This document shows, piece by piece, positions 18,416 to 60,623 of a stretch of 64,000 nucleotides of DNA. The notes beneath the pieces were generated by a model. The model saw only the letters and a list, made by a program, of their open reading frames with translations. It did not search any database and was not told where the DNA came from. A program made the position numbers and the translations under genes. The stretch is from Branchiostoma floridae. Its lineage: Eukaryota; Chordata; Leptocardii; Amphioxiformes; Branchiostomatidae. Within the stretch, counting starts at the first letter, position 1, and every line of letters begins with the position of its first letter. Location: NCBI RefSeq assembly GCF_000003815.2, contig NC_049996.1, forward strand, positions 15,358,828-15,422,827. The letters are read 5' to 3'.

Positions 18416-18451
18416 TGAACGTCAAATTTTTTCAGGATGTTCAAAGATATG

Positions 18452-18842
18452 TTAGCAGAAGACATGAGGGGCATTGGAGAGGAACTAGGGATCGATGCAG
18501 TGAAGAAGTGTGTCAGAACAGTTTTGGAAGACATGGAAAATCCGTAACGAACGTCAAATTTTTTCAGCACGTTCTAACATGTGTTAGCAGATGACATGAT
18601 CATGAGAGTCATTGGAGAAGAACTAGGAATAGATGCAGTGAAGAAGTGTGTCAGAACAGTTTTGGAAGACGTGGAAAATCTGTAACGAACATCAAATATT
18701 TTCAGGACGTTCAAAGATATGCTAGTAGTTTAAAGTGAGTAAAAAAATCTATCACGATGCAGTGAAGAAGTGTGTCAGAAGTTTGGGAAAACATGGAAAA
18801 TCCATAACAAACTTAAAATTTTTTCAGCACATTCTAATTTCT
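18452..18842 (+). repeat. Tandem copies of the TTI2 C-terminal coding tail
   Basis: Three diverged copies follow the TTI2 stop, at about 18452-18547, 18584-18685 and 18754-18800 (partial). Copies two and three of the tail keep an open frame for about 30 codons (LAEDMRGIGEELGIDAV... and LADDMIMRVIGEELGIDAV...), each ending in a stop. Each is preceded by CAAATTTTTTCAG-like sequence, which looks like a 3' splice site. They could be alternative terminal exons or neutral minisatellite copies. Confidence 0.85.
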
Positions 18843-26200: not shown

Positions 26201-27720
26201 TGTCCCCACCATGGTTTGTTTGACACCCCGCTGCTTGTGGTCCCCCCCAGTTTTGACAAACAGTTCCTGTGAAGACTCAGTCAGTTTCCCAGCAGCGATG
26301 ACAGGAAGCGAGCAGAGATGGAATGTCCGACATGCTCTGTGCTTGATTTATTTACTCCTTACCTCTACTGGTAGTCCATAGAGTTCACAGCAGGGGTGTA
26401 CTCATCTTTTTTTACTATAGCTACTTCAGTAGGGTAATAGTAGAGTAGGCGGCCTTCCCAGTGTGAGTGGCTCAAAAACTTGCTGTCCTTTGGTAGCACA
26501 TGGGGCAATTGCAATTGCTGTCGTATTGAGGTCACTTGAGTAGCGCTGAATGGCAGCCGCTCCAGACCCTTGCAACAGTCGTGTTGAGGTCATGATCACC
26601 TGAGTAAGCGCCGAATGGCAGGTGCTCCAGACCCTTGCGATTTAGCCTATTGTAAGATCCTCTCAATTCAGCCCATGGCTGCCAAGAGAGAGTAGTCATC
26701 GCACCCAATAACAATAACAATAACAATAACAATTAGCCAATATCTTAATTTGAAAGTTCAACTGTGTTGGTAAAGTCATCCTGAATCAGAATACAATTTG
26801 TAACTTCCAATACCAAAATAATTGGACTTGGTCTTTTGTTTGCATTTGTTACCATGTTTGTAGATGAACAACATAACTCAAGAAGCCATCGATAGATTGT
26901 TAACATGTATGTGATTAGGTTTTGACCTATGAAAAGAATGATTAGATTTCGGGACCACTGGTGACCTTTTCTTCTTAGCAAAACTTACTAGAATCAAGTA
27001 TATATTACAAGGAAATTGATACCAATTCAACTGACTGCAATATTAGACTGCATAAAACTCCTTTAATGTTGTTTGATTTCATACCAACACATATAGGTTA
27101 CGTAAACTTACTCCTAAACAAAAGGCAGAACATGAAATGTGAGAAAATCGTTCACAAGAGGGAGCCATGGGAAAACTAGAGGCCTGTCTCCTCACGATTG
27201 TGACTGACAGTGCTATCGCCCCCAACCCCACGGAGACAGACACTTGATCAGAGAAGTATTTCTCCTGTTGAAATCCTGGCAAGGTTTTGAAGGATGAAGT
27301 GCTAGAATGGTATGTTATCTGGTGTGCTAGTGCCTATAAATACCCCGTTGATGGAGTTGTTTAAGTTAGGGTTGAGTGATGGATGATTGGGGAACAGACA
27401 GGTCAGCAGTTGTGATGCTGTCAAGATGCAGCTGCAGTTTGAGGCTAATCTGATAGAGGGGGCAGCTGTACTGGTGTAACACCATCATACGTAATGGGGG
27501 TAACTTGGGTAGTTGAATTACCGAATAACAATATTCTTTATTCAGAATCAGGGAGTAACATTACAGCCAATGTTACAGCGCCAGTTGATAATCGATGGAA
27601 GTAAGCGGTTATGTTTTGCCTCATCTACAGTGTTCTTTCTAAACCCTGCTCATAAGCTATACTGTCATGTAGTAGTGCAGTGTTATAGAAAACATCAGTC
27701 TAGCTGTTAACACTGCAAAT
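26200..27720. other. Non-coding stretch upstream of the BTB-TLDc gene
   Basis: An (ATAACA)n microsatellite lies at 26706-26733. I see no exon, though a 5'UTR exon of the downstream gene must lie upstream of 28185 if the acceptor there is used. Confidence 0.4.
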
Positions 27721-27731
27721 ATCTTGTATTT

Positions 27732-27828
27732 TCAGGTAGGCTTTCACTGCAAGGGTAACCATGGGAACACAGGTTCCGCATTCCGCGTCGCTTCCCGACG
27801 GCCTGTTCTCGGGGCTGCCTAGCCTGTT
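27732..27828 (+). repeat. Decoy copy of the 5' edge of BTB-TLDc exon 1
   Basis: It duplicates the acceptor (CTTGTATTTTCAG), the leader, the ATG (27761) and about 22 codons of exon 1, up to the GGGCTGCCTAGCCTG block. The genuine exon has the same sequence at 28176-28280 with only a few differences. The copy then runs into non-coding sequence and lacks the BTB core. Confidence 0.9.
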
Positions 27829-28216
27829 TATTGTCTCCGTTTTGTTGTGTAACAATATCTGTATATGTGACAATATCTAACACTTGGGAGGACACTTGAC
27901 AGCAACATCTTAACTGCAGTGCAAAGTGAAATTGTCAGAATTGCCTTGAGGAAGGTCGCAGATACGTCAGCTCTTATGTGACTCCCTTGTTGTGGATGAA
28001 GAACACTGTTGTTCTGCCTTTGAGATTCCACCACATACGATTTGAGACTATGTGTCTGATACCATACTTTTTTTTGTTGAAAATTTTCAGGTAGGCACCA
28101 CAAATGTTACCTGTCATGCCTTTGAGATTCCTGGATTTAAAACTATGCATGTAAGTCTGACATTGCAAATATCTTGAATTTTCAGGTACTAGTAGGCTTT
28201 CACTGCGAGGGTAACC

Positions 28217-28435
28217 ATGGGAACACAGGTTCCGCATTCCGCGTCGCTTCCCGACGGGCTGTTCTCGGGGCTGCCCAGCCTGGTCTCTGACCTTCAGAAG
28301 CTTCTGGACGATCGCGACACGGCAGACGTGATGTTCGTGGTCGGGCGGGAGGAGGTTCCTATGTACGCACACAGGCTGATCCTGTGGGCACGGTGTAAGG
28401 GGTACCAGAGGTACAAGAGGGACTTCTGGAGCAAG
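28217..28435 (+). CDS. BTB-TLDc exon 1 (start, N-terminal BTB)
   Basis: 73 codons from ATG to ...KRDFWSK, donor AAG|GTAGGT, phase 0. The acceptor ATTTTCAG near 28185 precedes a short leader, so a non-coding exon lies upstream. It encodes the first half of the BTB fold with [12 protein letters not shown] and YAHRLILWA. Both edges are duplicated: the 5' edge once upstream, the 3' edge twice downstream. Confidence 0.88.
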
Positions 28436-31400
28436 GTAGGTTTAAGATATAGATTTAATTTGATATACTTGTTACTTTGTACAGTCATGACATCAAGCAT
28501 AGAAAAATAGAGGCAATAATGAGAATTCCATTCCTGGAAGTGAAAATGCATATAAAAGTGACATTTGAATTTTGGGCAAATGAAAAATCAGTTGGGGCAA
28601 GTCAATTTTTTATGTGCTTGCCCTATAGTAAAAGTGAATTTTTGGAAACTTGTCCAACCCTGGTACCAGAGATACAAGAGGGACTTCTGGAGCAAGGTAG
28701 GCCTATTTTAGGCACTTTCTTCTAGAATTATTCAATGTTCAAAGATATACGCAGTACCTTTGCTACACTAAAGTCTTGTAAAACAGAAATATGCACACCT
28801 AACAAAGGGAGACTTTTTCAAATATCTAATGTCATCAGCTAGCTACATGTACAATTTGATAACTGTAAGTTCGTCTTCACAAGTTTTACTGAGAAGAGGG
28901 AAGAAGCATGTTGAAATATAGATACACATTTTTTTTTGTATAAGTAGAACATAAAATATTTCACCTATCATTCTCTTTGTAAAGTTTGTATGCAAATTAC
29001 TGCATTTAGCCCCAAAGGTATGAGAGAGACTTCTGGAGTAAGGTAGGTTCAGGGTTGTGTTTAAAACCGGTTGTGTCACTCAAAAGTTAGAGATTCTGGG
29101 TTTGAATCCATTTGTGAGCAGGTCTCAATTTTTTTTCAATTCAGCTTTAGGGCTGCCTACCAAGGCTTGTACATGTACATTTGAATTGTTTTTTGAATGA
29201 TAAACCAGTCATCATCATCATCATCGTCATCATTTTTTTTTAAACAGGTTTGTGCCATGGAATAGTTTTGAATGCCTGAGGCTGAGAGGTAGCATTTTGC
29301 CAGCATTACACAACAATGCTATGCCCTTGAGAAAGGCACTTAATACGAACTCTCACTCCACTTCGTTGAAAATGAGTAATACTATCTATATTTAGTATTT
29401 TCAGGGAATTTTTGTTAACGTTACAACATGTCTGTCCATTTTACAGCTGTTGCCTCATTGTGCTATTTTCCAGGTGACAGGAATGAAGGGAATCATGACC
29501 ATCAAACAGCCCAAGTACAAACCTGAGGTCTTCAGGAGTGTTCTCAACTACCTGTACACAGGAAAGGTAGGGGCTCACTATTGTACAGACTACAATGGAA
29601 AATAGCAGTTACTCAAGCAACAGAATATGATTTTGGTGGCATATCTTATTACCTTGATGTCTAATCTTTATCGACGTACAGAGAAAGATATAAGGATGTG
29701 CAGCATGTACAATGTATCTTGTGTAACACTTGCATAACATTGCAAAGACTAAGGTACAAATTGTACAATGTAGGCACTTCATTCAGGTTTAATCCTCTAC
29801 CTATATTTCGTACAGATGACACTGAATGATACCAGTGTTTTAGATAGTTAACTGTGATGTTGTGTGCTATATTTTGTACAGATGACGCTGAATGATACCA
29901 GTGTTTTAGATAGTTAACTGTGATGTTGTGTCGTATATTTTGTACAGATGACACTGAACGATACCACAGTGTTTTAGATAGTTAACTGTGATGTTAATGT
30001 GTGCTATATTTTGTACAGATGACACTGAATGATACCAAAGTGTTTTAGGTAGTTAACTGTGATGTTGTATCCTATATTTTGTACAGATGACACTGAATGA
30101 CACCACAGTGTTTGAGGTGTTAGTGATAGCCCAGGACATGGGGGTACCAGACTTACAGTACAGCTGTGAGGAACACATCTCCAGTCAGCTGACCGTCCAA
30201 AATGGCTGCTTCTTCCTGGCGAATGCTTTAAACACTGTTCCCACGCTGACCACCAAAGGTTGGTTCTGTATTTTGAGATCTGTTTCTTTCTAGAGATATG
30301 TTCTGTCGGTCAGACTAGTTGACATGTTTTAGATTTTTGATAATTGAATGTAAGGCCACACCAATTTAATTTCTTGGTTCACGGATTTTTTCATAAAGAA
30401 TATGGAGCGAGAGGGCGAAATAAAAATGAAAATAAAAATTGTAAAATGGTTGGGGTAAAGGTAACGGCTAATCCAAAACATAAAGAAAAAAAGTTTTCAG
30501 CTTGATAAAAGTACAAAAACACTATTTTTGTACAGTAACAGCACCTGTACCCACACTTTAAGGAGCTTATGATATAAAGGCCAATTTGCTACACCAGAAA
30601 GTTGGTGAATGGTTTCATTAATGGTGAAAATTTGCTGAGTGGTAATTTTTATTTTTATTTTTTTTCCCAAAAAATAGGATTGAGCGAATCCGTGAACCAA
30701 GAAATTCAATTGGTGTGGCCTAATGTCAAGATTTTTTTGGGCACCCAATTTCTTTGGCAACCCTGCCAAATTATAGACTAATAGAGGCCTTCTCCACATC
30801 TATAAGACGTCTTTTAGGATTCAGCAACGTACCTATGATCTAGAAAACTTTTTAATACTTTAACAGTACACAGATCTATAAAGATTAGAAAAAACAAGGT
30901 TTCTTACATGCATATGTGATCCTTTTCCTTTTAACATCTTTATTTAAAACTTTCTTAAGAAGGAGCCAAAGAGATCTACCTCCTTAGGTTAGAAGAGACA
31001 GTCTTTTTTTAATTTGTGCATTTGTGAGAAAAATCCTTTTTACTTTTGTCTTGACATCTATAAACTTTCTTAAGGAGGAGCCACAGAGATCCATCCCCTT
31101 GTTGTCAGATGTCTTCACTTCATCGAGGAAAATGCAGAAGACTGCTTGAGAACGGAAGGGTTCTTACAGCTGCCGAAGGAGTCGGTCATCAGACTTGTGT
31201 CCAGTGATCAGGTCAGTTGCTGTTGTATTTTGCCCCCAAACTTATGAAGAAAACTAACGTTGACAATCTTGTGATTCAGCTAGTTAACTCCATATTAACA
31301 ACTTTACTTTGGTTCAGCTCCTGCTCGATCCAAGCTTGAAAGCCCCGTGATATCGTGCGGCGCTGTGGCAGTGTTTGTCGCATACCCTAGAGGTCCTGGG

Positions 31401-34400
31401 TTCAAAGCCTTTGATATGTCACCAACCTTGCGCCCTTGGAAAGGCACTTAACATGACTTTCCTCACTTCATTCAGGTGAAAATGAGTACCAAGCTTTAGC
31501 TAGGGCCATCCCTCAGATAGGACGTTAAATGGAAGTCACATGCTTGAGGAGAGCCACACCTACATAACTGACTACATAACAACATAGCAATAAGTAACAC
31601 TGAGACTGTAAAGTTGTGCCTAAGTTCCTATGTAATCGATAAATTTTCCAGAAAAAACAATCTTGGTTGTCCAGGCACTTTTTGGCAATACAGCCACAAA
31701 ACAGTTTCCTTAAGCCCCGTTTACAAATCAAGAATTTAGCTCGGCCGAGTTGTCAGCGAGCTCTAAATTACGGGGCTTTACCACATGGTGTAGTATAATT
31801 TTCCATAGCAGCTACATTATTCTGACAAAAATAGGAGAGAAACTACCATGAGCTCAAATTAGTTTGCTAAAGAAACAGTGACTAGGTTAACAATGTAATC
31901 AGTGACTTAAAAAAGTTATGGTTTAAAATGCGAAGTCTTAACATTTTTACCAAATATTTCAGTCTATGATCAGTTCAGTCTATGATAATGTTACATTTAT
32001 GAAAATTTTTTGAGTAATGTCCATTTATCAGACTGTTCTCAAGCAACTTTTACTAAATTTGATCAGGTAAGTTTGATAGTAAAATAAACGTTAAACCCAA
32101 GTAATACCAACAACCTTATCAAATATCAAGGAGACCTTATTAAGTAACAAGTAAGTAGTAAAAACCAACAACTACCACAACCTCTTAGAAAAATCTTAGT
32201 CTGATGTCAAGATGTTACAGTTCTAAATCATGCTTTACCAAACTCGGTAATTTCTGACTTTCTGTCTAACTACTGTGCCAGGTTTGATTTACCTAACTCA
32301 GTCAATGCACCAAAGAACCAATTTGCCCAACTTTGTGCAGTGGTCTATCAGCTCTACCTGCCTAACTATTGTAGTATACGAATCGGTGTTCCAGAGTAGG
32401 TTGCGTTTTGCCATATCTTGACATGACACTAGTGCCTATGTACTCTGTTTTCTTTCTGTATATATATAGAGACGGGCAAGTCCATCTTGCATGTCTGATA
32501 ATCTGCCTAACTATTGTAGCATGTGAATCAGCATTCCGGAGAAGGATTTGTTCGGTCGTATCTTGACGTGACAGCAAGTGGCGACTATGGCATAGACAGG
32601 AAGTGGGCTTCTCTTCAGAGCTTGCCTAACTGTGTGCAGAGTCTGTTCTGTCAGCTCTGTCTGCCTAACTATCGTAGCGTGTGGATCAGCATTTTGCAGA
32701 GAGGTTGCTTTAAAACTTAAATGGCTGTATCTTGACATGACAGTGCCTATATTCTCTGTTATTTTCTGTATAATATATAGACGGGAAGTCTATCTTGCTT
32801 GTCTATCTGCCTAACTATTGCACCCAGACACGATGCTGGGGATTGAGCTCTATCTGCCTAACTATTGTAGCATTTGGATCAGCATTGCAGAGAAGGTAGC
32901 GTTGGGCCGTATCTTAACATGACAGTGCCTTATATACTCTATTTTCTTTCTGTATATATATATATATATATATATAGACAGGAAGTGGACTTCTCTTCAG
33001 TGTTTGCAAAGTCTATCTTGCATGTCTATCTGCCTAACTATTGAGAATTTCAGAGAAGGTTGCATTTGGTCGTATCTTAACATGACAGCCAGTGGCGTGT
33101 AGTACTACATGATACATAAACAGGAGGTTAATTTGCCTGCATATGTGCTCTTGTGCTCTTAGCTCTATCTGCCTAACTATTGTAGCGTGTGGATGAGCAT
33201 TCCGGAGAAGGTAGCATTGGGCCGTATCTTGACATTCTCCTTGACGCGGAGCCAGACGCGATCCCGGGGGTTGAGCTGCAGGTACAGGGAGTTGCTGGTC
33301 ATGGCGTGGCCAGACATGTTCATGCCCTGCTGGGGAGGGGGGCAGAACACAAAAGTTTAGGATTCCAATCGAAGGACATGTTCCAATGTTCAAGGTCATG
33401 AACTTCAAGGCACAAGGTTTGCCCTGACTGAGCACTATTGTGCAATGTTCTGAATGATACCCTACTGGGGAGGGGGGCAGAACACAAAAGTTTAGGATTC
33501 CAATCGAAGGACGTGTTCCAAAGGTCAAGGTCGTAAACTTCAAGGCACGGCTCTTCAATAAAGATTTGCCCTGACCAAATGTTGTAGAGGGCTGAAGTTT
33601 CACATGTATGATGATGGCGTGGCCGGACATGTTCATGCCCTGCTGGGGAGGGGGGCAGAACACAGAGGTTTAGGATTCCAACTGAAGAACATTTTCCCAA
33701 GGTCAACTTGACACTAATGCATTTCAATAAAGATTTGCCCTGACCCTCTATTGTAGAATACCCTGCTGGGGAGGGGGACAGAAAACAAAAGTTTAGGATT
33801 CCAATTCAAGGGTATTTTCCAAAGGTCAAGGACATGAAGTTCAAGGCAATTCAATAAAGATTTGCCCTAAAACACTTTTTTGGAAGGACAAAGTTTCACA
33901 GGTATATGTATGATGATACATGAACATATCGTCTCTGTAGGTCAATGAATTAAGTCTAAACCTTTGATATGTCGATGAAAGTTTGACAGACGAGTATATA
34001 ATTAAGATATGCCAAGTAACAGTTAATCAAGCAACTGAATGTGAGTTTTGGCAAATCCTATTTGTTTCCAAAATAAATGATGTTTGGCGAATCCTCTATA
34101 GTTCCTCTTTTAGGACTCTATAACTCACTTTTGTCCAGGATTCCAGAATGACATATCCATGAAAATTTTTTTTTTTTAAATTTTGGAAACGGCCCAAAAT
34201 TGATGCGCACGCGGATGTCATCAACATGGCCTAAAACAACTCCAATGACCGGCAAAGGACATACCTGCAGGGACACGATGGTGACGCCGTTTCTGACCAG
34301 CTGGACCGGTTCGTACTGGTTCTCCGGGTGCTCGCACAGAACGTGGAACGTGAAGAAGTAGATGCCGGGCTTCTCTGACGTGAAGCTGTGGCCATCAAAA

Positions 34401-37400
34401 CCTGCAATAACAAATGGGATCCACCTCAGATGAAGTCAATTTTAGGATGTTTTTATTTTCCTGGGAATACTGAAGATGCAGAAATATTTGCAGTGGTTTT
34501 ATGTTTGCATTTTTTTTTGCTGTGGCTGCCTCACTGCGAACTCGGAACCACCGCGAACATTTCCATTATAATTTGTAGTATGTGCATGGCGCTACTGCAA
34601 ACACAAATCCACTGCAAACACTCCAATTTTCTTGCTGCCGTGAAATAAACCCCGTCAACATAAATGCATTTACAGTAGATATATCTTAATCTTTAGATTA
34701 CTTTCTTTTCCATACACAATGTGTTCCTTAATTGTTATTCCGATATTTCCAGACAAGCATCTTTCTTAGTTAATCTTTTTGTCAGGTTTACTGAGTGCAG
34801 CAGTTGAGTAGTAGAGTATCATCTTACTCCTTTCTTGACGTTTCATGCATATTCTTCGGACCACAAGTTTTTTGCTAAAAATGCTGACTGTTTCCAAATT
34901 CAAGAAAACGTAATATTCAATATCTACATAAAAGATCAATAGTTCCATGTTATGATTTTAGCCTTGTTAAACCTTGTACAGTTAAGAACTTCTAGAATAC
35001 TTCTTGCCCATTGCTTGTGTACGACAGCTTTGGTTAGTTGAAGACAAGAGAGCAACCATTGATTCCTTGTTGCCATCCAGTAAGGGAAAAAGGACACTGT
35101 CATAGCAAAGATCAGCATGTCACTGGAGAGACTACTATAATTACTTTCCATTTAATGCCCATTTGGACTTCATTTCTGCATGCCCCCTAACATGCTGCAG
35201 ACACAGTAAGAAGAATGCATGTACCCCAGCTTTCTGTCAGTAAGGCCATATTGATTTGATTATATGGATGACATCCGTGCGTTCATCAGTTTTTTTCCGT
35301 CCTTAGGAAAAGCAAGTTTTCAACCATATTATACTTTTATAGATAGTACAAAGTAGCTGTAAAATGCTGTATATTGCAAAAAAATATCGGAGAACAGACG
35401 CTAATGTCATACATTGTACAATGCCAAAGTCAATTTCAAAGTCAATGTCAAACAAAATTAAGAATCTATTGTTCGATGTCTAATTTTTTTGGTCAGTTTT
35501 AGAATTCCCAGAATATGTCATCCATATGATCAAATCAGCCTAATGTAAAACATTTGCACAAGCTTGGTTAAAGGTTTTAACAGCCCAGCAAGTCGGGAGG
35601 GGGGCAAGATTTAGGCCTAGGGAATAAATGCTGTGTTTCCTGTTTCCCTACCTACTCTAGAAAAAATTGCAGACCCTAGACTTTTTTGGATGGGCAGTCA
35701 CATAACTTCCAGTTAGAATTTTTATTCAACCTACTTCCTATTGAAGTAAAAAACACTGCTTGTCCTATTTTCTTCTTCTTCAGGTTGAGATGGCCAACAT
35801 CGTCATATTGATGAATATGCTAATGAAGGATAAAAACTATCTATTATGCTCAACATTCAAGTTTGACATTGAAAGACAAGTGTTGCATGCATTTTCTCTT
35901 TTGTTCAACTGTATTGTGATATGTATCACTAGAGGTTTGGGCCAGCCTTAAAGAAATCACAAGAAAAAAAGATAGCCCCTACCTACCGACCCTAATTTTT
36001 CAGGACTGAAACAGGAGACAACATTTTTTTCCTTTGCCTTATTAAACCTAAGTTAGGTTTTAACAGCCCGGCAAGTCGGGAGGGGGGCATGATAATGATT
36101 AAGAGCAAAATCAAGGCTGGCTGTGTCAAGACCACCCACCTCCTGTTCCCCGGTGACCTCTTGGTCGAGGTTTTTCTGTGAACAAAGTTAACAATGTGGA
36201 AACTTTAATCTGTTCAGTCAGGCTGAAATTGGTCAAGTTTAAGTCTTAGAGTATATCATCGGGACTAGTTAGTGATGCTTGCGCATTGCTGAAAGTTCAG
36301 AGAAAGATTGTATCATAGTTTTCCTAACATTTTAAGCGTTGAAACACCACCTGCAAAGCAGGTTAGTGCAGGTTGTGCACTGTTGTAACCTGCATCTAAT
36401 ATGTGCCAGCCACATGCAGCATTCAATAATTTGACAGCATATAAGGTGGCATCAGGACCACATTTATACATTTTTTTATGGACTGTAAGAAATCAAAAAG
36501 AGTAAGAATTTGAAAAAATTGTAAAATATTAGATTATACAATGTATCTATCTGTGTAGTTGCACATTTGAGAATGGTTTGACTATAGAATGAGACTGTTG
36601 AATACTAAGCTTCAGAAGGAGTGATCTGTGTGCATTTGCTCACCTGTTCCTGTGTTTATAAGCACTTTGTCGAAGATGATCCTATCCTGTCCGCTGGGCC
36701 CGCTCCCAGTGTGCACCGCTGAGAACACCACTGGCACAGTATCCGGTTTTGGGGTCACCTCAGGTCGTCGTCGCTGCGGGAATATCCGCTTGATGTCCTC
36801 CTCGCTGAGGCCAGGTCCAGGCGGCCCCGGCGGGCCAGCGGGACCCTGCGGCCCAATCTGCCCGGGTAACCCGGTTGGGCCGATCCACCCCTGTTCGCCT
36901 TTGCTGCCGGGAATGCCCGGGCCGCCGATGGGACCGGGGCTGCCGGGAGCGCCGATCGGGCCTGGGGTTCCCGGCGACCCGGGTTGACCCGGGGGTCCTG
37001 GTGGCCCGGGGTAGCTGCTGTAGCCAGACTGCGAGCCAGGCTGGGTGTACCCGGGTGTGCCCGGGGGACCTGGGTCGCCGCGGGCTCCTTTGTCTCCTTT
37101 TGCGCCCGGGACGCCGGGAGCACCCAGCATACCGGGTGGGCCGGGGACTCCGGGTTGGCCAGGTGGCCCGGGTAGTCCCGGACCTGCAGCGCTGGGATTG
37201 AAGCGACCGGTTGTAACGGAGGTGCATTCCTTGCAGAGACCAGGTAATCCTGGGGGGCCGGGGGGTCCTTGTGGGCCAGGGGGGCCTGGTCGGGCGGGTC
37301 CGGCGGGTTGGTCAAAATACGGACTTCCGTACGGCTCTCGTGGGCCAGCTGGTAACGATGGCCCCGGAGGGCCAGGCGGGCCAGGAGGTCCTTGAGGGCC

Positions 37401-40400
37401 ACTTGTGCCAGGCGGGCCAATCACTCCGGGTGCGCCGACAGGGCCAGGAAACCCCCTGGGGCCCCCTGCTGACCCCTTCTGCCCGGTTAACCCAGGTGGA
37501 CCCGGCTGCCCGGGTGTACCCGGGACCCCAGGCGACCCGGGTTCTCCAGCTGGGCCTGGGTCACCCTTCTCCCCCACGATAGGCAGGCTCACCCCGCCCT
37601 CCGTACCGGTGCACCGGATCTTACAGGTGGGCTGCGGTCCCGTGCTCTGTGTGGGCGGAACTGCAGGCTTATCGTCGTCAAACAGGAACCCCAACGTTAA
37701 CGGAAATGTCCAGAGCAAGAGAATGCACGTCTTCAAATCCATTGTACACTGAGAATGTCACCCTTGCAGCTTGACAATGTCTTGTTTCTGTGAAGCTTTT
37801 CTGTGAAGCTGAGCCACACTGAAAATGTTTGCCATATACTGAGAATGTCACCCTTGCAGCTTGTGTTGTCTCTGTGAGGCTTTATCTCTCAGAGTGCAGG
37901 AAATTTCTCAAAGTCCTGTGGCAGGCAGACCGTAGAACCCTGAGGCAGAGAGATGGACATAGAATAATTACCATTCCTCACTGGTACAAGACGTTGACAA
38001 CTTTAACATGCATAGCAGCACTAATCAACCATTCCTTGTTGGTACAATTGTGACAGCTTTCAAGACATGGGAGGGGTGATAAATGAGTTTGCGCCTCACC
38101 AAAAGGTAATAAGTAATCTCCAAGCAGATCCTACGGTAGCACAAGATAGTATCAAAAGCTGCCAGAGGAGTGAAGCTGGCCTAGGAGTGTGTTTGGCTAC
38201 CACTGATGACTCCTTTTGGCCAGCTGTAGTCTCCTTAGCCTGCTTTGATACTATCTTATGCCACTGGTAAATCTGCCTTGAGATTAATGATAAGGTACAA
38301 AACTTAAACTTCAGTGCATAATTATTAAGTAGAAAGCCTTTGATGAATGTCTACCAATTTTCAAATCTTTGTACCCCATTTTGCAGGTGACACCCAGTAA
38401 TGTTAGGTGAGTAAGACTGCAAACTGTGACCTTACATTTTGGGTCAGTTTTGCTCTGCTGAAAGTCAGATACCCACTTCTTTCTAGTTCAAATACAAAGG
38501 GAATCCTCATTAAACATTTTGACAATGTCTTCAAAGATTTGATGGCATGAGGAACTCGACTCACACAGCTCTGATCACAGATCATTGATCATGATGATTT
38601 GAAATCAGGTGGATATTGATTAACGACCTCATTACATGATTTTGCCACAAAATTTTAGTTCTATCTGCACCTTATTTCTGGGTGAGACCAAGAACTTATT
38701 GATCACCCCTTGTAACAGCACCAAGCAACATGCCACATATACATATTTTGCACTGGACACTTTCTGCTGCAGAAAACATAAATTTATTGTACAACAATTG
38801 TACAAGGTACCAAGCATAGCATCTACTGAGACTAATCTACTTAATACAAGAGTGCATAATATATAGTATGGGATGAAAATGGTCTTTTACAATCATTGGA
38901 GGCATTTGTAGCATCTAGACATTCTTTGATATATTTTCCTAAGTATACCGTGCAGGGGTTGTCGCATACTTATAGCTCAAGAAAACTGTAACTGTTGTGC
39001 TAAACATTGTATAAAACATTTTATCGAAAGAAAAGAGTTGTTTCTTGAATACATACCATCCAAAATGTCAGTTGCAATGGGAGAACTGGTCTTCACCCAG
39101 TGACACTTATGTCGGGGCCATGTGGGGGATAATCAGATCCTTTCCTCTGTTTGAGGGTGGGTAAGGGGTTTGGAGAGCCCTGCTATGGATGTTTTATTCA
39201 CATCATTCTAGTGAGTACCTCCTGTGTTTAGTATGTGTATTGAAGCCTAGTGCTGACTATGATGATTGAGAAAAATAGTCTGGTTAAATGTTGTGTTTGT
39301 AGACATACATGTACATTTGTACTACCATATCATAACCATAGAACTCAATAAAAGCAATTTGATAAGTTTTTCAAAGAAACTGGATGTATGTAAGTCAAGT
39401 AAGTCAAGGATGTATGCAATTGAATACATGGTAAAATCAAGAAGGTTATTATTTATTAACCTCCTTGGTAAGAAACTGGCATCCAAAACTGAATTCGATA
39501 GGGAAAATTTTTTAATGCCTTGACTCCCTTGAAAAGGACCCTTGTGTTGTATAGTCCCAAATCAATTCAATATGCGACAAGATTGACCATTGCCTTCCTC
39601 TCTTAAACATTAATATTATGATTTGATTGTGACTACAGTGAACAACCCTCAAGGAAAAACAAAATTAACAAAACTAGAGGTCTGTAGTTCCAAAAACCCT
39701 GAAGAAAAAAATAAGACATCATGTTATGTCAATGAAGGTTAGACAATGTCAGCTAATAAGATACGCCGAAAAGCAGTTACTCAAGCAACTGGATATGATT
39801 TTGGAAACGGTCAGCCATTCGGTGTTTTTACTTAAGACATCATGTTCCTTGGTAAACCCCAACACATCCCTAGCAAGTGCAGACCTGCTTTTCTTCCTGA
39901 CAGCCGGCGTGTTTACTGACCAACTGTAATAAACACAAGATATGGCAACAATCCGAGGCATCTGTTACGTTAGACAACACAAACAACTCTGCAACTGTTA
40001 CCGCAACGATTTTACCAGAAAAAATGTAAACTCTCTTTAGAAATATCACAACTTTTTCACAAGAAAACCTCCTTTTTTCAATTGAAAGTCTCTTAGAAAT
40101 AGTTCTGCTGACAATCTTCAGTGACATTTAGAACTTTAAACTTCCTACGTTACACCAAAATTTGTTCCAGACAACCAGTGTAGTACAACCATCCTGTGGA
40201 GCTGCTTAAATTTTTATTTTCTGCATTTGTGGGGAAGTCTAGGGGCCATAGGTGGGATTCCAAGGCAGACCCTATCTTTACTGTGAGTTTAAGACCATGG
40301 TGCACTCAATGTATCTAAATCAAATCAGGCATGCCTTTTTCTGTTAGACCTATTGAGCTATTTTAATTCACCATTAATCATATATATCGTTGTATAATAC

Positions 40401-43400
40401 CTAAAGATAGCACAAAGAAATGATTCTTGTCAATATAATGGTTCAAAGACTACCACTACCATTTAGACTCTTATTTTAGGAAAGAAGACCTATTTTGCAT
40501 TACTCTGTCGGTTGGAAACCAGATACTAGGAAACTTCTAATTGAAATTTGCTCTGTGGGTTAAAGTTTCAAGTTTTGTATCCTGACATTTTGATCTCTGG
40601 GTTAATATTCTTATTAAGATTCGGATGTTAGAATAGATAGATGAAGTACACATTGCAATATTTAAGTATAGCAAAGGTGACAACAAAGAAATATGTCATT
40701 AGAATTTTTTAAAGGAGATTTGTCATGCCATTCCTCACAAAAATGCTTCACACCACATACCAGTAAACAAATCAAGATAACTTTAGCGTTGTGCAGTTTC
40801 GGCTGCATGTCTGGCTTGCAAAAGCATGTTATGGCTTAAGGCCTTACCAATTGTATACATCGCTTATCAGCACTGTTGAAATAAAGATCATAATTTAGCT
40901 TTATTTCTCTTGTAATGTTGTATTGTTTCAAGTTTAAACTACAGCAGTTTTTCTCATCTAAATTAGAGAATTTATGTGACATGTAAACATGTCATTATCA
41001 CCTAGTCTTTCAGGTGCTGGGATAAAATCTCTGCAGTTTCTATAAAACTACAATCAAGAAAAGTTTGGACTATCCTCCAGCAGCTATTCATTGCAAAAGG
41101 CATGTGGTTAAAATTTAAAAGTACTGCAGCTCACCATGGCTACAAAGTTTGCCCCCCTCCCACTGTGACACCAAGTGTAGTGCCTCTGAATAAGGACCCC
41201 CTTGCCCTTAATTCACTGCGAAGTCAAAATCACGTCTGTGGAAATGTGAATTGGTTTAAAGTAACTGTTGCCAGGCCTTGCCATATGACCCGTCAAAGGC
41301 TAAAAGTACTGTCTTTACGTCTGCACACACATCTACGAATGTTCTAGATGTGGTGAGTTATGGGGACCTGTGTTGCATTATGCTTCTTTGTCTCTTATTG
41401 TCACCAGGTTTTTCTGGTTACAGTAGCAGGTTATCAGGTGTAGTGAGCATTGGGCTCAGAACCAATAAGTCCCTAGTTCAATACTTGTGCCCTTGGGAAA
41501 GGCTCCCACTCTGTCTCAGAGTGAAAACAGGTATCTGATTTGGGGTGGGGAGGTAAAAGGCAGGAGAAGGAGAGGGCTCTGTCTTGCCCTTCCAATAATG
41601 TACCCTAGACACACTGTCTATTCAGGAAGCTATGTATGCCACATGGCTGCCTCATCATATACTATTAGATGTTTCATGCCCGGCTGGGTGTCAGCCTTTT
41701 TAGCTTTACTCTGCTCTCTCTGTCTCTTTCCTACATGTAGTTACGTAAGCGGAACAAAGCTACATGTATACGAAGGCAGGCACCCAGGCTATGTTTCCTA
41801 GCTGCAAGAGACTTGTATTATATTGTATTATCATGGTTACATTCTGTGTTCTTTGTCTAAATACAGTTACAAGTCATTGGACAGATATTTAAGTTAAAGA
41901 TGAGATGCCAAAACTACATTGTGTAATATTAGACTGTAAGTTTTGTTATTTGTACATTGCCATACATTGTCACTGATGCAATTGTTGCACAATAGATCCA
42001 TCCATCAATCCATCCATTCCTAATCATAATCATAATCAATGCTTGTGTTGCTGCAGCTTGCCCTGGAGGAGGAGGAGGTGTGGAGACGGGTGCTGGCCTG
42101 GGCCAAGTACCAGGCTAAGGTGGAGAGCTCCCCGCAGAGATGGAGCCCTGAGGAGAAGGCTCGGGTGTGCCAGGTAGGTTCACTTTCTACAGGTGTGCCA
42201 GGTAGGTTCACTTTCTACAGGTGTGTGGCAGGTAGGGTCACTTTCTACAGGTGTGTGGCAGGTAGGGCCACTTTCTACAGGTGTGTGGCAGGTAGGTTCA
42301 CTTTCTACAGGTGTGTGGCAGGTAGGGTCACTTTCTACAGGTGTGTGGCAGGTAGGGCCACTTTCTACAGGTGTGTGGCAGGTAGGTTCACTTTCTACAG
42401 GTGTGTGGCAGGTAGGGTCACTTTCTACAGGTGTGTGGCAGGTAGGGCCACTTTCTACAGGTGTGTGGCAGGTAGGGTCACTTTCTACAGTTGTGTGGCA
42501 GGTAGGGCCACTTTCTACAGGTGTGTGGCAGGTAGGGCCACTTTCTACAGGTGTGTGGCAGGTAGGGCCACTTTCTACAGGTGTGAGGCAGGTAGGGTCA
42601 CTTTCTACAGGTGTGTGGCAGGTAGGGTTACTTTCTACAGTTGTGTGGCAGGTAGGGCCACTTTCTACAGTTGTGTGGCAGGTAGGGCCACTTTCTACAG
42701 GTGTGTGGCAGGTAGGGTCACTTTCTACAGGTGTGTGGCAGGTAGGGCCACTTTCTACAGGTGTGAGGCAGGTAGGGTCACTTTCTACAGGTGTGTGGCA
42801 GGTAGGGTCACTTTCTACAGTTGTGTGGCAGGTAGGGCCACTTTCTACAGGTGTGTGGCAGGTAGGGCCACTTTCTATAGGTGTGAGGCAGGTAGGGTCA
42901 CTTTCTACAGGTGTGTGGCAGGTAGGGCCACTTTCTACAGGTGTGAGGCAGGAAGGGTCACTTTCTACAGGTGTGTGGCAGGTAGGGCCACTTTCTACAG
43001 GTGTGAGGCAGGAAGGGTCACTTTCTACAGGTGTGTGGCAGGTAGGGCCAATTTTTACAGGTGTGTGGCAGGTAGGGTCACTTTCTACAGGTGTGTGGCA
43101 GGTAGGGCCAAGTACCAGGCTAAGGTGGAGAACTCCCCTCAGAGATGGAGCCCTGAGGAGAAGGCTCGGGTGTGCCAGGTATGGTTCACTTTCTACAGGT
43201 TTCTCCAGGTTGCGGGAAAGCAGAAATGCCCACTTGCACACTTACACACTTACACTTACTTAGGGAGTGAGTGACACTTACAAACACAACCACATTTTGC
43301 TTGGTGCAACATGGCTGAAAAAAAACACTAGTGCCAGGTACAGTCACTTTCCACAGGCTTCTCCAGTTGTCACCACGAGGGGGATGACAGCAAATTTTCC

Positions 43401-46400
43401 CTAGCTTTTCCTTTGTAAAGTCAGAAGAGTAACGACTTTGTATACATTGCACCAAACTATAGCATGATAGAAGGCACACAGATATTACTTAATGACAGTA
43501 ATCTCAGTTCTATGCACCTCCTTACTTCTTACTATGTTAGACATTCATCAGAAAGATAGATGACAAATAACCTTTGTGTCTGTTTCTTTCAGCACCTGTC
43601 TGGAGTGATAGAACATGTGAAACTGCTGCTGATAGACAGTAAGGTGTTTGCTGAAGAGGTGGAGCCCACTGGAGCTGTGCCCATGGAGCTATCACTGGAG
43701 AGGTAAACAAATAATTCAAAACCTAATAAAAGAGTATCTTCATTTTTCTGGTCTGTCTGCACTGTACCAGACACATGAATAAGTAAACTATATAAATTAT
43801 GTGTTCACACTGCTTTGACTTTGTTGCACTTTTGACAGCCCAGAAAGACCTTCCAGGGTACTGAGAACATTTGGTTTAGGTAGACAGGTGTGGTCACTTA
43901 TTACTATTAGACAAGATTCTTTTAAGAATGCTTGCTGTGTCATCAAAAAGTGGTCACATTTCCAAGGTCATCTTTATGTGGAGGTGGGTACTTGTACGGG
44001 TCTTTCTGAGTCAAATGCTGAGTGCTTAGGCAAGAAAGCAGCATGTACCCTTTGCTATGATGTACCCCACTCAATAGATAAAGGTTCCAACCATCCATGA
44101 CTCGGTGGGGATCAAACTCATGACCTACCCAACACTCTCCAGGGCTCGAAATTCATTTTGGGGATTAGGTGCACTGGTGCACCCAGCTTAAAAAATTGGG
44201 TGCACCAAAAACATTTTGGGTGCACCACTTAAATTTCAGTAATAACCTTATAATAAAACTTGGTTACAAGCTATCAAATCCTTAAACAAGTACCATGACA
44301 GACATTTTATTCTCTTTCTAACACTTAGAATATGATGCATACTAGTATACTTTGATATCTTTACATACATAAACCTAAGAAAATATTTGGGTGCACCCTG
44401 TGCACCCACAGAAAATAATTGGGTGCACAGCTCCAATTTTGTGTGCACCTAGTATTTCAAGCCCTGGCTCTCCAATACAAGTCAATAACAACAGGATTGT
44501 GATGCTTTGTCCCCAGGTATCGCATTGCAGCTGTACCCACAGGACTGAAGAACAGCAGAGACAGGAGGCTGACCCCCAGAGTCTCCCACAAACTCTTCAA
44601 AGGGACAGACATCCTGAGCAGGGAGAGACTGCCTCTACAGAGGGTACTCAACCAATGGTAAGGACCTGCCTCTGTAGAGCCTTTTGATGTAATGTGTTAT
44701 CTACAGTTTTGACCATGTTGGTGTCCCCATTAGCATTGGACAGACATTCTGAGCAGGGAGAGACTGCCTCTGCAAAGGGTACTCAACCAATGGTAAGGAC
44801 CTGCCTCTGTAGAGCCTTCATGTAATGTGTTATCTACAGTTTTGACCATGTTGGTGTCCCCATTAGCATTGGACAGACATTCTGAGCAGGGAGAGACTGC
44901 CTCTACAAAGGGTACTCAACCAGTGGTAAGGTCCTGCCTCTAAAGAGTCTTTTCATGTGATGTTCTGTCTACAATGTCAGCCATGTTGGTGTCCCTATTG
45001 GCATTTTATTATATCATAGCTGAAACATGTTTGGATGGACATTCTGATCAGGGACAGACTGCCTCTACAAAGGGTACTCAACCTATGGTAAGGTCCTGCA
45101 TCTAAAGAGCCTTTTAATGTAATGTGGTGTCTGCTTTGTCGACCATGTTGGTGTCCCCATTAGCATTTCATTATATCATAGCTGAAACATTTTTGGACGC
45201 ACATTCTGATCAGGGACAGACTGCTTCTGCAAAGGGTACTCAACCAGTGGTAAGGTCCTGCCTCTATGGAGCATTGTAAAATGTGACCTGCACTGTGTTG
45301 GCCATGTTGGTGTCCCTTAAAGTCATAGCTGAAACATATTTGAACAGACATTCTGAGCAGGGAGAGACTGCCTCTACAAAGGGTACTCAACCAATGGTAA
45401 GGGCCTGCCTCTGTAGAGCCTTGTCAAATTCAAATGATGTAACCATGTTGGTCTCCCTATTAGCAATATATATCTGAACCATTTGGAGCTATCAAGCAGC
45501 TTTCTGTAAAACTGTATAAAAAGTTTGATCAATAGCATTATGCAGTGTTGTAAGCAGTAAGATTGTTTCCCAAGCTCTTAAGGTAGACAAGCCAGAAGTT
45601 AATAATTGCTAATCAGGTACAAAGGAAAATTTAGAAAGAAGAGGAAAAGTAGACCACACAACCTTGGTATACCTCAGTATGTTAATTAGGTAATGTAATC
45701 CGAGTTGTTCTTTGAGTGTCTACCATCTTGCTCCATAGTGCAGCCCTGCTGTAATAAAGGTCCACGTTGTGACAGTTTCTGAGGGACCCCTTTGCAATCC
45801 TTGTGTACTTAACTGGTGTTATGTTTTCCCGTTGTGTTTAACCCCAGGTACGGGGACAGTAAGCAGGAGTGGAGACTGCTGTACAAGGCGTCCAGAGACG
45901 GTTACACGGCCGATGCATTCCACCAGAACTGTGACGGTTTCAGCCCCACCATTGTGCTCATCCTGGTGAGTTGGTCGTTTCACATGAGCGCCACCTAGTG
46001 ACTTTTGCTATTATTACATAAGTCTGGACTCTTATGAACATGTTTAATATGTTACTATCATGTCCTGTTGATATATCTGCCTATGTTGGTCAATTTATAT
46101 ACAACTCTTTTAAAAACGGGGAAAATATCATACTGTCCTGAAGCAGCACATAACGTTAGCCTGATTGTTAATCCTATTATCATTCGTAAAATAGATTAGT
46201 TTCTTGGAATTTTTTGGATATTAGCAACTCATGTAGTTAAACTGTTCTGTATGTATTGTATGTACAAGTTGCCACACATTGTAACCTTTACAGTTTCGTG
46301 CAATTAAGTTCTATCTTCTTCATGTATAAAAATAGAAGTACAGTATTTCTAAACAGCATTGTTATATAATTACAGTGGGTGAATATACACATCATGTACT

Positions 46401-49400
46401 GTTTTGGGTGTGCAGCTGGGTTTGGGTATATATCTCAAGAACCGCTGGATGGATTGTGATGGTTTCTGGTGGGTAGGTGGGGTGATCCCGACAGTGAAGC
46501 TTGATTTTGGGCCTCCTGGTGGTTGACTTTGGTACTACAGCAACAATTGTTTTGCATACATTTCGTCCTGGATGTGCTGTGGTGTTTAATTTTTGGTGTT
46601 GACATAAAGATCAAGTATTGTAAATTTTGGCCCCCTAGCTGTGGATCTGCTGGGTCATATTGTGTTTGTTTGTTTGTTTGTTTGTTTATTTATTCGCACA
46701 CAAGTATTACATTAAAACACAAAACGAAAACAATGGATAAAACAGGTGCAGGAGGAGGGAAAAAGCTTGTGAAGCTTATACTTAGCTCCCTCCTCCTTTA
46801 AACTAAACAAAATTGATTATGATATATAATAATAAAGTAAAGTAATACATAGAATGATATTGATACAATAAGGATAAACAAGTAATTAATGGTATGAATT
46901 AACAATGAATGATAAAGTAACGTAATATGTAGAAAATAATAATGATGCAATAAGGATAACCATGTAATTAATGGTTTGACTTAACAATAAATAATAAATC
47001 ATGTGTTAATGTGTGTCTATCCTGTCAAATATCTTAAGAACAGCATTTCTAGACAGCATTGTTAAACCTGTTTGTCCTGTACCCTGTATTGCTGTAGGGC
47101 CACAAGGGGAATGTGTGTGGGGGATTCAGTGATGTACCCTGGACAAGTAAAGCCCCCGCACAGGGGAAGTACATCGCTTCAGACAGGTAAGAGTGATGTA
47201 CAGTTTTTTACAGCAGTCAGATGTGCAAAAGTTAGGTGTGACTGGTTGCTCAGTGTATAATATGACCAACTGCTGCCGTGCCGCGTTCCTGCGAAGCTGG
47301 TGTGTTATGCGGAAGGGCAGTTGTACCGGCTATACAGATACAGATAGTTTTTGTTTTGATAGATTTTTTGTTGTTAGGGGTTGATATTCTTGGCTAATTC
47401 ATATGGCATTCCAAATGAACAAAAAAGTACCAAAATGTGCAAAATATTACACAATGATGTCCTGAACTGAACTGAACTGATGTCCTTTGACTTCTAACTC
47501 TTCTCTCTTTGACTTAACAATATGTCAATATGATAGCCTGGGTACCATCAGGATAGCTGTTTTCTCCTATGTTCGCTTCTGCTACCCGTCTGGAGACATG
47601 CACATTCACACCTTTTGGTGGTTACGTCAGTTCATGGGAGTGGGTTCTAGAGCACTCATTCGATGACAACAGGCCCTCCCGCAAGCGGACGGAGGGCCCT
47701 TCGGAAAGGCCTGTTCGAACGAGCGCTTGTACTCATACCTTAATTTGCTCATATGTAGGGACCAATCACCACCTGTTCAAAATTTGGACGATTAAAGACG
47801 TTAACATGGTTTGGGATCCCAGACAGAATGGCAGAGAAGCTATATATATAGTGTATAATGAATGTCAGAGCTAGAAGTGACTGTATACATAGAATACAAC
47901 ACGGTGTATTCTGTATCGCCCAAGGTATCAGCCTGACCGCGGGTTGGATCGCCCGACGGCCGAAGGCATATCATGCCAACCTGAGAAAACTCATGTTTAT
48001 CGCAAAAAAAGAGCAAAAACATGTCCTTGATGCACGTTGCGACAACAACTTTATTCGTCCATTCGAACAAAAGAACAGGGTAAAGGAACAGGCTTCGAAC
48101 TGGTTAACGGAACAAACTTCTATCTCACTACGAGTTCACCTGAGCTCAGCTAAATGTAAATTCATAATAACAGCTTGATTTGTTGCAACATTTGAAACAT
48201 TTGAAAGGCACGGCAGTCATAAGTTTCTACTGAATTTGAATCTGCTGGCTAGCCAATGCGCTGGAGCTCGAGGAAGAGCCGCCGAAGTTCCAGGTTCCCC
48301 CTTGGATCGTTGCTCCGGCAAAAGTTATGTGGACAGTGGGCTGCGTGGAAGGGGTCGGGAACACAGGCGATGGTGCTGGCGGTTTCTCGGCACTTCCCAT
48401 GATGATGTCATTCATTTCCTTTTGTTGCTCCTCAGTAGCACACGAGTAGTTGTTGACAGACTGGAGGTTCTTGTGCCCAGACAGCTGCACGATTCGCGTA
48501 GGGGGGAGGTCGGCGGACACGAGCGTTTGCATCATTGTCTTTCTTGCACTATGGTTGACCTTACAGCCCGACAGACCTGCTTTCTCAGCCATGGTGCGCA
48601 TGATGCTCCCGATTTTGTTCTTCCCCATCGACAAACCATACTTCAGCACCAGCTTTGCGCGCTTGGTTGATTCCAAGGTAAAAATGTGCCGTTGGATGCA
48701 TCTGCGTCATTGGTCTGCGCTTTCGGTACTCTCTGTACAAGTTGACGGGACATGGAGACGGGCGCTCCGGACATGCGTAGGCCCGTGGCCGAAATGGTCG
48801 TGAATCGGAGGTTGCACCGGTCCTGGTTTTAGTCGCCCGCTCACTGTACTCTAGTACACTCCGTCCTTGGCTGTCGGTTGTTTCTTCTATGTCCCCCCAG
48901 AGCATGGTGCAATGCTCCGCCCGGGACCGCATGCCAAACAGCATGGTGTTATTCAGCCACAGGGCGCTGATGAGGCTTTCGGGGTTGTACGGCCCAATAA
49001 GCCTCTTTTTTTCCAAGAGTTTCATTTGGGCTGCGCTCAGTGGCTCCGCACGGTTTGGCTTACTTCCCTTCCCTTCCTTCTTCAGGCTCTTCCGCTTCGC
49101 CACAAGGCATTCACGTGAATGCGCAAAACGGCGATCAGTCATGATCTCTGCTGGGTAGGCCTTCTCTTTTAGATAACGGGCAATGGACCGATGCTTGCTG
49201 GTTAAGCTGTCTGGCTCATATTCTTCGCCACTATCCTTGCGTATGCCTATGAAGAATCTTCCCAGCATCTCATCCAAGTCTTCCTCCGACATGTTCTCCG
49301 GCCTCCTCTCTTCTCCATTTGCCTCCAGGAACAACACGAAGTGACTGATTTCGGCCTCTGTCTTCCTCTTCGTGTTGAGGTTCTTCTCATTGTCAATGTA

Positions 49401-54858: not shown

Positions 54859-54999
54859 ATTGCGGTCACGATTGTGCTCTATATCTAGACTTCCGCATCT
54901 ACAAACAGCGCTTCCTGATTTTGTTGAAGATATCATGTGTCAGTCATGGTTGATGAAGCAAAGGCACTGTATGCAACAATTCTGACCTTATATCACCCG

Positions 55000-56066
55000 G
55001 GAACATGGTTCGTTGCATTAAAACATGAGAGAGTACTTTTTTAAAGGAAAGCTTGCTCATTTCCTATAATTAGCCTACCGCTGCATTATAACGTCTAAAC
55101 GTATTGACTAATTTTTAAAGGCCGTTTTTTTTGGAGGACGTCGATTGGCTTGGTTGAAAATAGAAATTAATAGAATACTTGAAATCCTTGGACTTGAATA
55201 ATCTTGAATGTCATTTTACTTATTTTTAGCACACGGAAGTTCCGCTTTTGTCATATTCTGTTGACAGATCCTCAACGGACATAGCTTGTTCGTGTCACGT
55301 GGCTTTTCAGTCCTAATGATGTGGCAACAATGATACCATTTGGGGTACTTGGGAAGTCCTTATATGGTAAACTTCACCGTTACACTAGTGACAGCGGTGC
55401 TGGTGGAATTCTGGAAGGGCGTTTTGAGCCAGTATGTAAGATAACGGCAAGATAACATGTGGAACCTCTGTCTTATGTTACTACGAACTATATTGCATCA
55501 TCGAACTCCTCCCACTTTCACCTTTACATGTGTTCCTTATAAGGTGAAGTAAGGGGTAATAATGCCTGCCTGACACAGGTGTGATAATGTAAGAAACCTC
55601 ATGATCACAGTCAACCCAACTTAAAGAAATCACTGTGGACTGTTCCTCTTCAAAACGAAAGATTCATATATACCATAGAAGTCATGAGTACATCTGTTTG
55701 ATCAGGCAATATCGCATAAAATTCTTGTTTTATTCAGTCCATACCTGTAGGTTTTTTACAATTTAAATAACCACTTTGATCATCATTATGATTATGTAAG
55801 TGTTTTTATGCATGTGACGCTGTATGTTTCAGTCAGCTGTGCACATGGCCAAATATTTTAATGAAATGTATTTTAAATCCCTAACAGGTACGAAAACAAG
55901 TTATCGACGATAGTATTCACTGTATAACACCCTACTAAATCCTATAGACAGTTCTGTTATGATGGTACCCACCGAATTTTAGCACGTTTGTTCAACTTAC
56001 GAAAAGTCGCTAGCCTATTTGACTAATATGTGATGGACAGTAGCCCTCAACAACACACTTGAACAT
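55000..56066. other. Spacer between RTK copies 1 and 2 (duplicated)
   Basis: Large parts match 59550-60620: GAGAGAGTAC(T)TTTTTAAAGG, CCGCTGCATTATAAC, GTGACAGCGGTGCTGGTGGA then ATTCTGGAAGGGCG, and CAAGTTATC(G)A. The duplication unit therefore includes upstream flanking DNA and presumably the promoter. No other gene is seen. Confidence 0.75.
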
Positions 56067-57038
56067 TCAAACTGCCGTTTCCTTTTCCGTGATCATCGTG
56101 TGGCACATTTGCATGAGTTTCGTCTCTAGAATATCCGGAACCGGTCTTGCCAATGGACTTTCCCGCCAACACGACATCATGACGTCATACATTTCTCCGG
56201 AACAATCCGGAGGCTTCCTCAGCCGGATTCCCCTCCGGAGTGTCCTGGCGAGCTGGTGACAGGTCGGGTGGTTGTTGCCATCGTAACGCGGTTCTCGTCC
56301 CAGCGTGGCGATCTCCCACAGCAGCACGCCGAAGGACCAGACGTCACTCTGACAGGTGTACTCGCCTGTCTCTAAAGATTCCAGAGACATCCAGTTCAAC
56401 GGCAATACTTCATTTCCTGCGTTGTTTGTATCTCCGTTAGCCGGTTCTTTGCCACGTTTATTACTAGACACGTGTTGGACAGTGGTATAGACGTCACCGG
56501 CCTGTCCGAAGTCGGCCAGCTTGGCCACGTTGTCGGCAGTGATGAGGACGTTCCGAGCGGCCACGTCACCGTGAGTGAGCGCCAGGCGTTGGAGCTCCTG
56601 AAGAGCGCGGGCAATGTGTACGGCGTAGCGGAGGTTATGTGGGAGAGGCTGCGGTCCGTTTTGCCGTCGTGTCTGTTGCAGCAAACGTAAAAGGCAGCCT
56701 TTAGAAGCGTATTCCATGACGATATACTTCTTAGTCGACTCATTGACCAATGCCAACAGCTGGATGATGTTGGAGCGAAGGTTGTCGTGATGCCGATCCT
56801 CGTGCACGGCTACCAAGATGGCCGCCTCCCTGAAGAGGCTGCGGTAACACGGACCGTCTCGTGTGCGAACCTCCTTGGCAGCAACGGTGACGTCCCCGGC
56901 AGATGTCTTGAGCCTGGCCCGAATGACGTGACCGAACCTACCCATGCCTACCAGGTGACCGAGAGTCAGATGTCGGCTGGTCGTGCCCCAGCGCCTGAGC
57001 CAGCCCGGCCGGACGGCCTGTGCCAGATCTGACTCCAC
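56067..57038 (-). CDS. RTK copy 2, kinase exon
   Basis: Begins VESDLAQAVRPGWLRRWG after acceptor ATTACACAG and runs to the stop. It holds the juxtamembrane segment and the whole kinase domain in one exon. Confidence 0.92.
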   Translation of the reverse strand: MESDLAQAVRPGWLRRWGTTSRHLTLGHLVGMGRFGHVIRARLKTSAGDVTVAAKEVRTRDGPCYRSLFREAAILVAVHEDRHHDNLRSNIIQLLALVNESTKKYIVMEYASKGCLLRLLQQTRRQNGPQPLPHNLRYAVHIARALQELQRLALTHGDVAARNVLITADNVAKLADFGQAGDVYTTVQHVSSNKRGKEPANGDTNNAGNEVLPLNWMSLESLETGEYTCQSDVWSFGVLLWEIATLGREPRYDGNNHPTCHQLARTLRRGIRLRKPPDCSGEMYDVMMSCWRESPLARPVPDILETKLMQMCHTMITEKETAV

Positions 57039-59361: not shown

Positions 59362-59419
59362 ATTGCGGCCACGATTGTGCAAAGAAAGTAAGCAAAGCAA
59401 GTAAGCAAGCTCTATATCT

Positions 59420-60620: not shown

Positions 60621-60623
60621 CAC

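Follow-up and report, generated by a model that had tools for sequence, protein, structure and literature searches.

Copied exon edges in an amphioxus BTB-BACK-TLDc gene are probably ordinary mirages, local duplications that happen to span exon boundaries

In a gene of the amphioxus Branchiostoma floridae, short copies of exon edges lie in the adjoining introns. Is duplication directed to exon edges at this locus, or does it merely happen to span them? The gene lies in a stretch of 64,000 nucleotides of contig NC_049996.1, called here the window. In our own exon model (window 28217-45965), eight exons, E1 to E8, join into 1095 nt with an open frame of 365 amino acids, and the product matches the Pfam profiles of BTB, BACK and TLD, all above their cut-offs. 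Further downstream, one frame resembles the C-terminal part of TLD. No exon linking E8 to this frame was located; the model is unsettled at this end and may still miss at least one exon after E8. The E4 acceptor at 31087 fits the phase and scores poorly (-6.6) in our splice-site scoring; a better-scoring alternative, the AG before 31109, falls outside the copied block.

Copies were detected as ungapped self-matches within 1 kb (score of at least 16 at +1/-1.5, microsatellites masked). With this detector, 6 of the 16 edges of the gene lie in a block that has a further copy within 1 kb, and 5 of 16 under a stricter overlap setting, while first-order Markov resampling of 30 kb of window sequence yielded 0 such duplicate segments. 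These six edges, namely both sides of E1, the acceptors of E3 and E4 and the donors of E5 and E7, are exactly those named in a preliminary description of the locus. The 5' side of E1 was counted at the start codon (28217), which is no splice junction. The likely 5'UTR acceptor of E1, at 28187, sits at the end of the copied block, and the detector gave no match there because a 6-bp indel shortens the ungapped match. The upstream copy of this side holds an acceptor-like TTTTCAG, 5'UTR, the start codon and the first codons. That description had also stated that each copy contains a splice site with neighbouring codons; the copies are real, and this holds for most of them. The nearest spacings are 456 bp for the E1 5' side, 261 bp for the E1 donor and 68, 115, 28 and 135 bp for E3, E4, E5 and E7, respectively. 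Copies are arranged head-to-tail in the E3, E5 and E7 arrays and are spaced at E4 and on both sides of E1.

Table 1. Exons, copied edges and associated features in the window, ordered by position.
Feature	Position	Strand	Remarks
TTI2 array	18321-18834	+	132-bp array repeating CDS end and stop codon; no splice edge
Upstream copy of E1 5' side	27710-27826	+	original 28160-28282; 97% over 91 bp
E1, coding part, BTB start	28217-28435	+	exon model and Pfam
E1 donor edge, original	28401-28440	+	self-match
Truncated dispersed repeat (first repeat)	28459-28662		between E1 donor copies 1 and 2
E1 donor edge, second copy	28662-28701	+	98%
Truncated dispersed repeat (second repeat)	28712-29012		between E1 donor copies 2 and 3
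E1 donor edge, third copy	29008-29047	+	80%
E2	29474-29566	+	both edges without copy
E3 acceptor array	29800-30113	+	original and 4 upstream copies, 66-71 bp apart
E3	30087-30258	+	donor without copy
E4 acceptor region, copy	30947-30985	+	original 31062-31100; 87%
E4	31087-31211	+	acceptor choice uncertain; donor without copy
Collagen-C1q exon 3 acceptor (33326) and three copies	33301-33829	-	
E5	42057-42173	+	acceptor without copy
E5 donor minisatellite	42165-43107	+	30-bp units, about 31; self-match
Distal copy of E5 tail including donor	43108-43179	+	
E6	43593-43702	+	both edges without copy
E7	44517-44657	+	acceptor without copy
E7 donor edge, five tandem downstream copies	44738-45425	+	133-162 bp apart
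E8, TLDc start	45848-45965	+	both edges without copy
Frame matching C-terminal part of TLD	50435-50635	+	weak: E 2e-4, 21.5 bits vs cut-off 24.5

The two spacers between the E1 donor copies are truncated dispersed repeats, and each runs up to the next copy, stopping no more than about ten bases from where that copy begins. This would be in line with an origin of the spaced copies from retrotransposons that leave long target-site duplications and, by inserting, restore the splice site. We fetched and aligned 20 copies of the two repeats and scored the flanks of the first. The first repeat (40 of 1643 candidate matches were scored) has 12 other copies in the genome, two of them with shared flanks, and its consensus ends, CAGGGTTGGACAAGT and ACTTGTCCAACCCTG, are as in a DNA transposon; the window copy moreover lacks the left end. 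Comparable flank repeats are missing from the other copies: the best flank match scored 6-12 in 12 of 12, compared with 36.5 for the window copy. The second repeat, which from its sequence appears to resemble the 3' part of a non-LTR retrotransposon, ends in the window before the tail carried by 8 of 8 other copies. The spacer that follows the E1 5' copy (27827-28159) gave only partial matches, of 43-112 bases. All of these features speak against target-site duplication, which was rejected as the source of the E1 donor copies once the flanks of the first repeat had been scored and which we consider extremely unlikely for spaced copies in general. Within the E1 5' spacer, a 63-bp piece (27900-27962) has matches of 79-83% at several places on different contigs.

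At the E5 donor the copies form a minisatellite. Between 42174 and about 43200 it contains 31 donor-like and 30 acceptor-like sites, the first being the E5 donor itself, and the distance from an acceptor to the next donor is 11 nt in 26 of 30 cases. Higher-order patterns are visible by eye, of 90 bp near the 5' end and 60 bp near the 3' end, and the first units are odd, as expected of unequal exchange or slippage. We considered whether the array is coding. The E5 frame is open across it (412 aa, window 42036-43274), splicing from the distal donor at 43178 would stay in frame and add 335 residues, mostly a 10-aa repeat, and our own gene finder chose the longer exon. A coding role was provisionally rejected because two other frames are also open and the substitutions show no constraint: relative to a 29-unit consensus, the exon frame shows 26 nonsynonymous and 5 synonymous differences, where 65:22 is expected for random single changes, and these counts are non-independent, 14 of them being one change.

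Splice sites were scored for the copies of the E1 donor, E3, E5 and E7, and the copies come close to their originals: 4.8-5.1 against 5.1 at the E7 donor, 2.4-3.7 against 3.7 at the E3 acceptor, 4.8 and 6.0 against 6.0 at the E1 donor, and 5.0-6.6 against 6.6 at the E5 donor. Such scores could mean that the copies are retained for a function, as spare splice sites that buffer or diversify splicing. However, young copies would retain their sites regardless, the E5 array lacks coding constraint, and exon-edge minisatellites of this kind apparently leave regular splicing undisturbed, according to a published account (PMC3087553). Retention for function is thus quite unlikely.

That account had already described exon-edge minisatellites of amphioxus under the name 'mirages' (PMC3087553), and the preliminary description, which drew the link to them, was correct to do so: the window copies match the published ones. 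There, mirages are reported for the globin genes BflGb6 and BflGb9, the units measure 10-72 bp in Adh3 and 150-160 bp in the globins, and mirages are proposed to give rise to new introns; the Adh3 mirages, with somatic instability, are credited to Canestro et al. 2002 (via PMC3087553). A mirage is recognized by a repeat unit lying across an exon-intron boundary and by splice signals in the copies. In the window gene the former was found at the six copied edges of 16 and the latter in the scored copies. Spacings of 30, 66-71, 115 and 133-162 bp match the published range of units, those of E1 (261-456 bp) being longer. The globin mirages described there share with the window gene tandem copies that span boundaries at 5' or 3' edges, many AG/GT sites and the exclusion of boundary units from homogenisation; the window gene differs by having six such edges in one gene, spacings of about 30-456 bp and an array of about 31 units. 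The Adh3 mirages appear to be of the same kind as the window copies, somatic instability being a feature reported for Adh3.

Two further published cases are related. In lancelet PGBD5, imperfect tandem repeats of 60 and 108 bp extend over 5' and 3' splice sites, as in the window gene; the passage describing them deals with one gene and carries no rate for introns (PMC3902484). Intron gain through tandem genomic duplication (PMC4974935) also relies on tandem duplication within a gene, but there it is linked to a new intron, whereas here existing introns carry spare edges. Among the matches listed in the open-licence literature, as judged by title and start of abstract, none gave a genome-wide count of mirages or a rate relative to introns.

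As a positive control we turned to Adh3. A class III alcohol dehydrogenase profile has one strong place in the genome (136 bits in one exon, below the whole-protein cut-off). The detector found copies at 3 of the 4 tested edges of this Adh3-like gene, in which two exons were called: the exon 2 acceptor and both ends of exon 3, with a 59-bp unit at its acceptor and a 33-bp unit at its donor. No copy extends across the exon 2 donor, and repeats start just downstream of it. This is a gene of the kind that bears the published Adh3 mirages, perhaps at other edges. The globin genes were uninformative as a control: nine matches gave no tandem rows, probably owing to the low scores of short edge copies.

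The copies might also be artefacts, false tandem copies produced when haplotypes are mixed during assembly. The analysis uses a single assembly, and a figure legend in PMC3087553 mentions one mirage that the genome draft of the time had assembled aberrantly. On the other hand, copies outside the E5 array differ by about 2-20%, and two copies are separated by different transposon pieces. An assembly artefact is therefore very improbable.

The preliminary description had extended the pattern to two neighbouring genes. For the nested collagen-C1q gene (our own exon model; the C1q match is weak, E 0.0018) this holds for one acceptor, which has three copies, and fails for three other splice edges, 36643, 34401 and 34264, where the detector found none; near its 5' end, a copy was found for the point 37757 and none for the ATG at 37742. 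A tandem array is present in TTI2 as well, but it lies on the stop codon and the detector found no copy at the 5'UTR acceptor, so that describing this gene as the same is only partly right. Elsewhere in the window, three related genes stand in a row on the minus strand (51982-63930), with EGF-like repeats, a membrane segment and a protein kinase domain recognized by eye and one protein kinase match among them; local duplicates cover at most 1% of 52001-64000. Overlapping open frames at 48588-49586 on the minus strand (333 aa) and 48227-48706 (159 aa) look like a tyrosine-recombinase-type element.

Are edges in the window gene copied more often than the introns around them? Local duplicates cover 22% of its introns, and 25% within 500 bp of exons. 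Six edges were observed to be copied versus 3.5 expected from circular shifts (P = 0.12). Coverage by distance from the edge, in bins from 5-50 bp to >800 bp, was 0.26, 0.19, 0.23, 0.22, 0.46 and 0.16, with no peak at the edge. Exon interiors of this gene are themselves 13% covered, and its exons are therefore not free of duplicates.

The same comparison was made on 25 stretches of 10 kb from the same genome, at positions fixed beforehand. The sample is unevenly spread, as three contigs (C1-C3) account for twenty of these stretches. Gene models came from our own gene finder, which uses codon use, splice sites and phase, without transcripts. Seven stretches were left out by hand as GC-rich, satellite-like or lacking a credible gene (L007, L008, L014, L021, L023, L026, L030), and other stretches had no gene call above the score used. 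The curated set also drops L025, the second half of a KLHL array and a number of exons that were weak or duplicated; of a duplicated exon in L010 it retains only the first copy, at 6266-6319, the one at 6533-6583 being dropped. There remained 13 gene entries from 10 of the 25 stretches, 12 of them checked against Pfam, the plus-strand entry of L029 standing outside that check. The Pfam types are ATP-synt_ab, WD40, methyltransferase, CDKN3, GSHPx, MACPF, Lon-type AAA, CRT-like, BTB-Kelch, ORC3, LRR and FG-GAP. This set replaced an earlier count (7 of 111 edges versus 5.3% of intron, with three of the seven in one KLHL array) because the gene calls behind that count lacked the Pfam check.

In the curated set, 5 of 101 edges (5.0%) were covered by local duplicates, as were 4.9% of 39,864 intron positions (3.8% within 500 bp) and 1.2% of 9,722 positions in exon interiors. 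The edge/intron ratio was 1.01, with a gene bootstrap interval of 0.00-3.28, and it ranged from 0.72 to 1.02 over six settings, with upper bootstrap limits of 2.5-3.8. Circular shifts, for which the one-exon L029 entry was set aside (12 multi-exon genes, 100 edges), gave 5 copied edges versus 3.7 expected (P = 0.32), and 11 versus 7.1 when pooled with the window gene (P = 0.08). In a larger uncurated set, coverage did not rise towards edges (0.046 at 5-50 bp, then 0.031, 0.042, 0.035, 0.051, and 0.137 beyond 800 bp). Edges in the sample thus behave like introns, and depletion is seen only inside exons. The array count at edges versus introns that the preliminary description had put forward therefore gave no separation when run on the window gene, on the sample or on both pooled, and its contention that random duplication would not give so consistent a pattern, and with it the need for an edge-tied mechanism, is not borne out. 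Its alternative, selection that keeps duplications leaving one edge intact, agrees with the depletion of sampled exons and sits less well with the coverage of exon interiors in the window gene.

The five events fall in three genes, and copied edges tend to occur where introns carry a high load of duplicates. The WD40 gene of L010 has 3 of its 12 edges copied, namely both edges of one exon and the donor of another, and 27% of its intron covered. A MACPF acceptor in L015 has a 22-bp match, and a KLHL donor in L020 a 51-bp array. Among the ten entries without an edge event, intron coverage is 0-3% in six and 6-11% in three, and one has no intron positions. Across genes, the intron load of duplicates runs from 0 to 27%. 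Its Spearman correlation with the fraction of copied edges is 0.42 (P = 0.17) in 12 genes and 0.57 (P = 0.04) with the window gene included. A short exon of the L010 WD40 gene occurs in two copies, at 6270-6333 and 6534-6597, 264 bp apart and 88% alike. The 51-bp array of L020 (9490-10000) is 96% alike, reaches the end of the stretch and was translated in frame by our gene finder.

We consider it probable that the window copies are ordinary amphioxus mirages, neutral local duplications that happen to span edges and are not directed to them. Duplication-rich genes would acquire local duplications anywhere in their non-coding DNA, mostly in tandem and about 25-160 bp long. One that falls wholly inside an exon would disrupt the protein and be lost; one that crosses an edge would keep one intact exon and splice site and place the spare copy in the intron, and would be tolerated because one intact edge is enough. 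The spare copy may then decay, take transposon insertions or expand into a minisatellite. As load is uneven between genes, a gene with a high load would display many mirages. Besides the neutral origin, we infer that the copy joined to the exon is the one that is spliced.

An edge-directed process is unnecessary for this pattern. One could nevertheless imagine a mutational process, such as breaks or template switches coupled to splicing or transcription, that favours splice junctions. The share of copied edges in the window gene, the L010 exon copied on both sides, the three Adh3-like edges and the pooled excess would all fit it. But sampled edges are covered no more than introns, coverage stays flat towards them, and the window gene and Adh3 were picked for showing the pattern. 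We therefore regard edge-tied mutation as unlikely. Three observations count against the neutral reading. In both sets more edges are copied than the shifts give on average (6 versus 3.5 and 5 versus 3.7), which together with the pooled P value makes a modest edge excess possible; some excess would be expected anyway, as constraint on one copy of each pair would make it longer-lived. In addition, the events of L015 and L020 occur in genes with little intron load (2% and 0%, respectively), and duplicates also lie inside exons of the window gene. With only five events in three sampled genes, the true edge excess could be as large as three- or fourfold.

Mirages have so far been described gene by gene, and we give here a first rate, about 5% of edges, introns being covered at about the same level. 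This similarity suggests that mirages need no special mechanism, and it shifts the question to the uneven load of duplication between genes and to splicing amid many equal sites. A broader reading is conceivable, if doubtful: some genes may be hot spots of local duplication, with introns filling with sites as strong as the real ones, as in the stretch after E5, and edges perhaps hit up to three- or fourfold more often than introns. With intronic sites equal in strength to the real ones, the choice of exons would then have to rest on position or exonic context, and such genes would continually supply new exons and introns. If this is true, the duplication hot-spot genes of amphioxus would be natural tests of exon definition.
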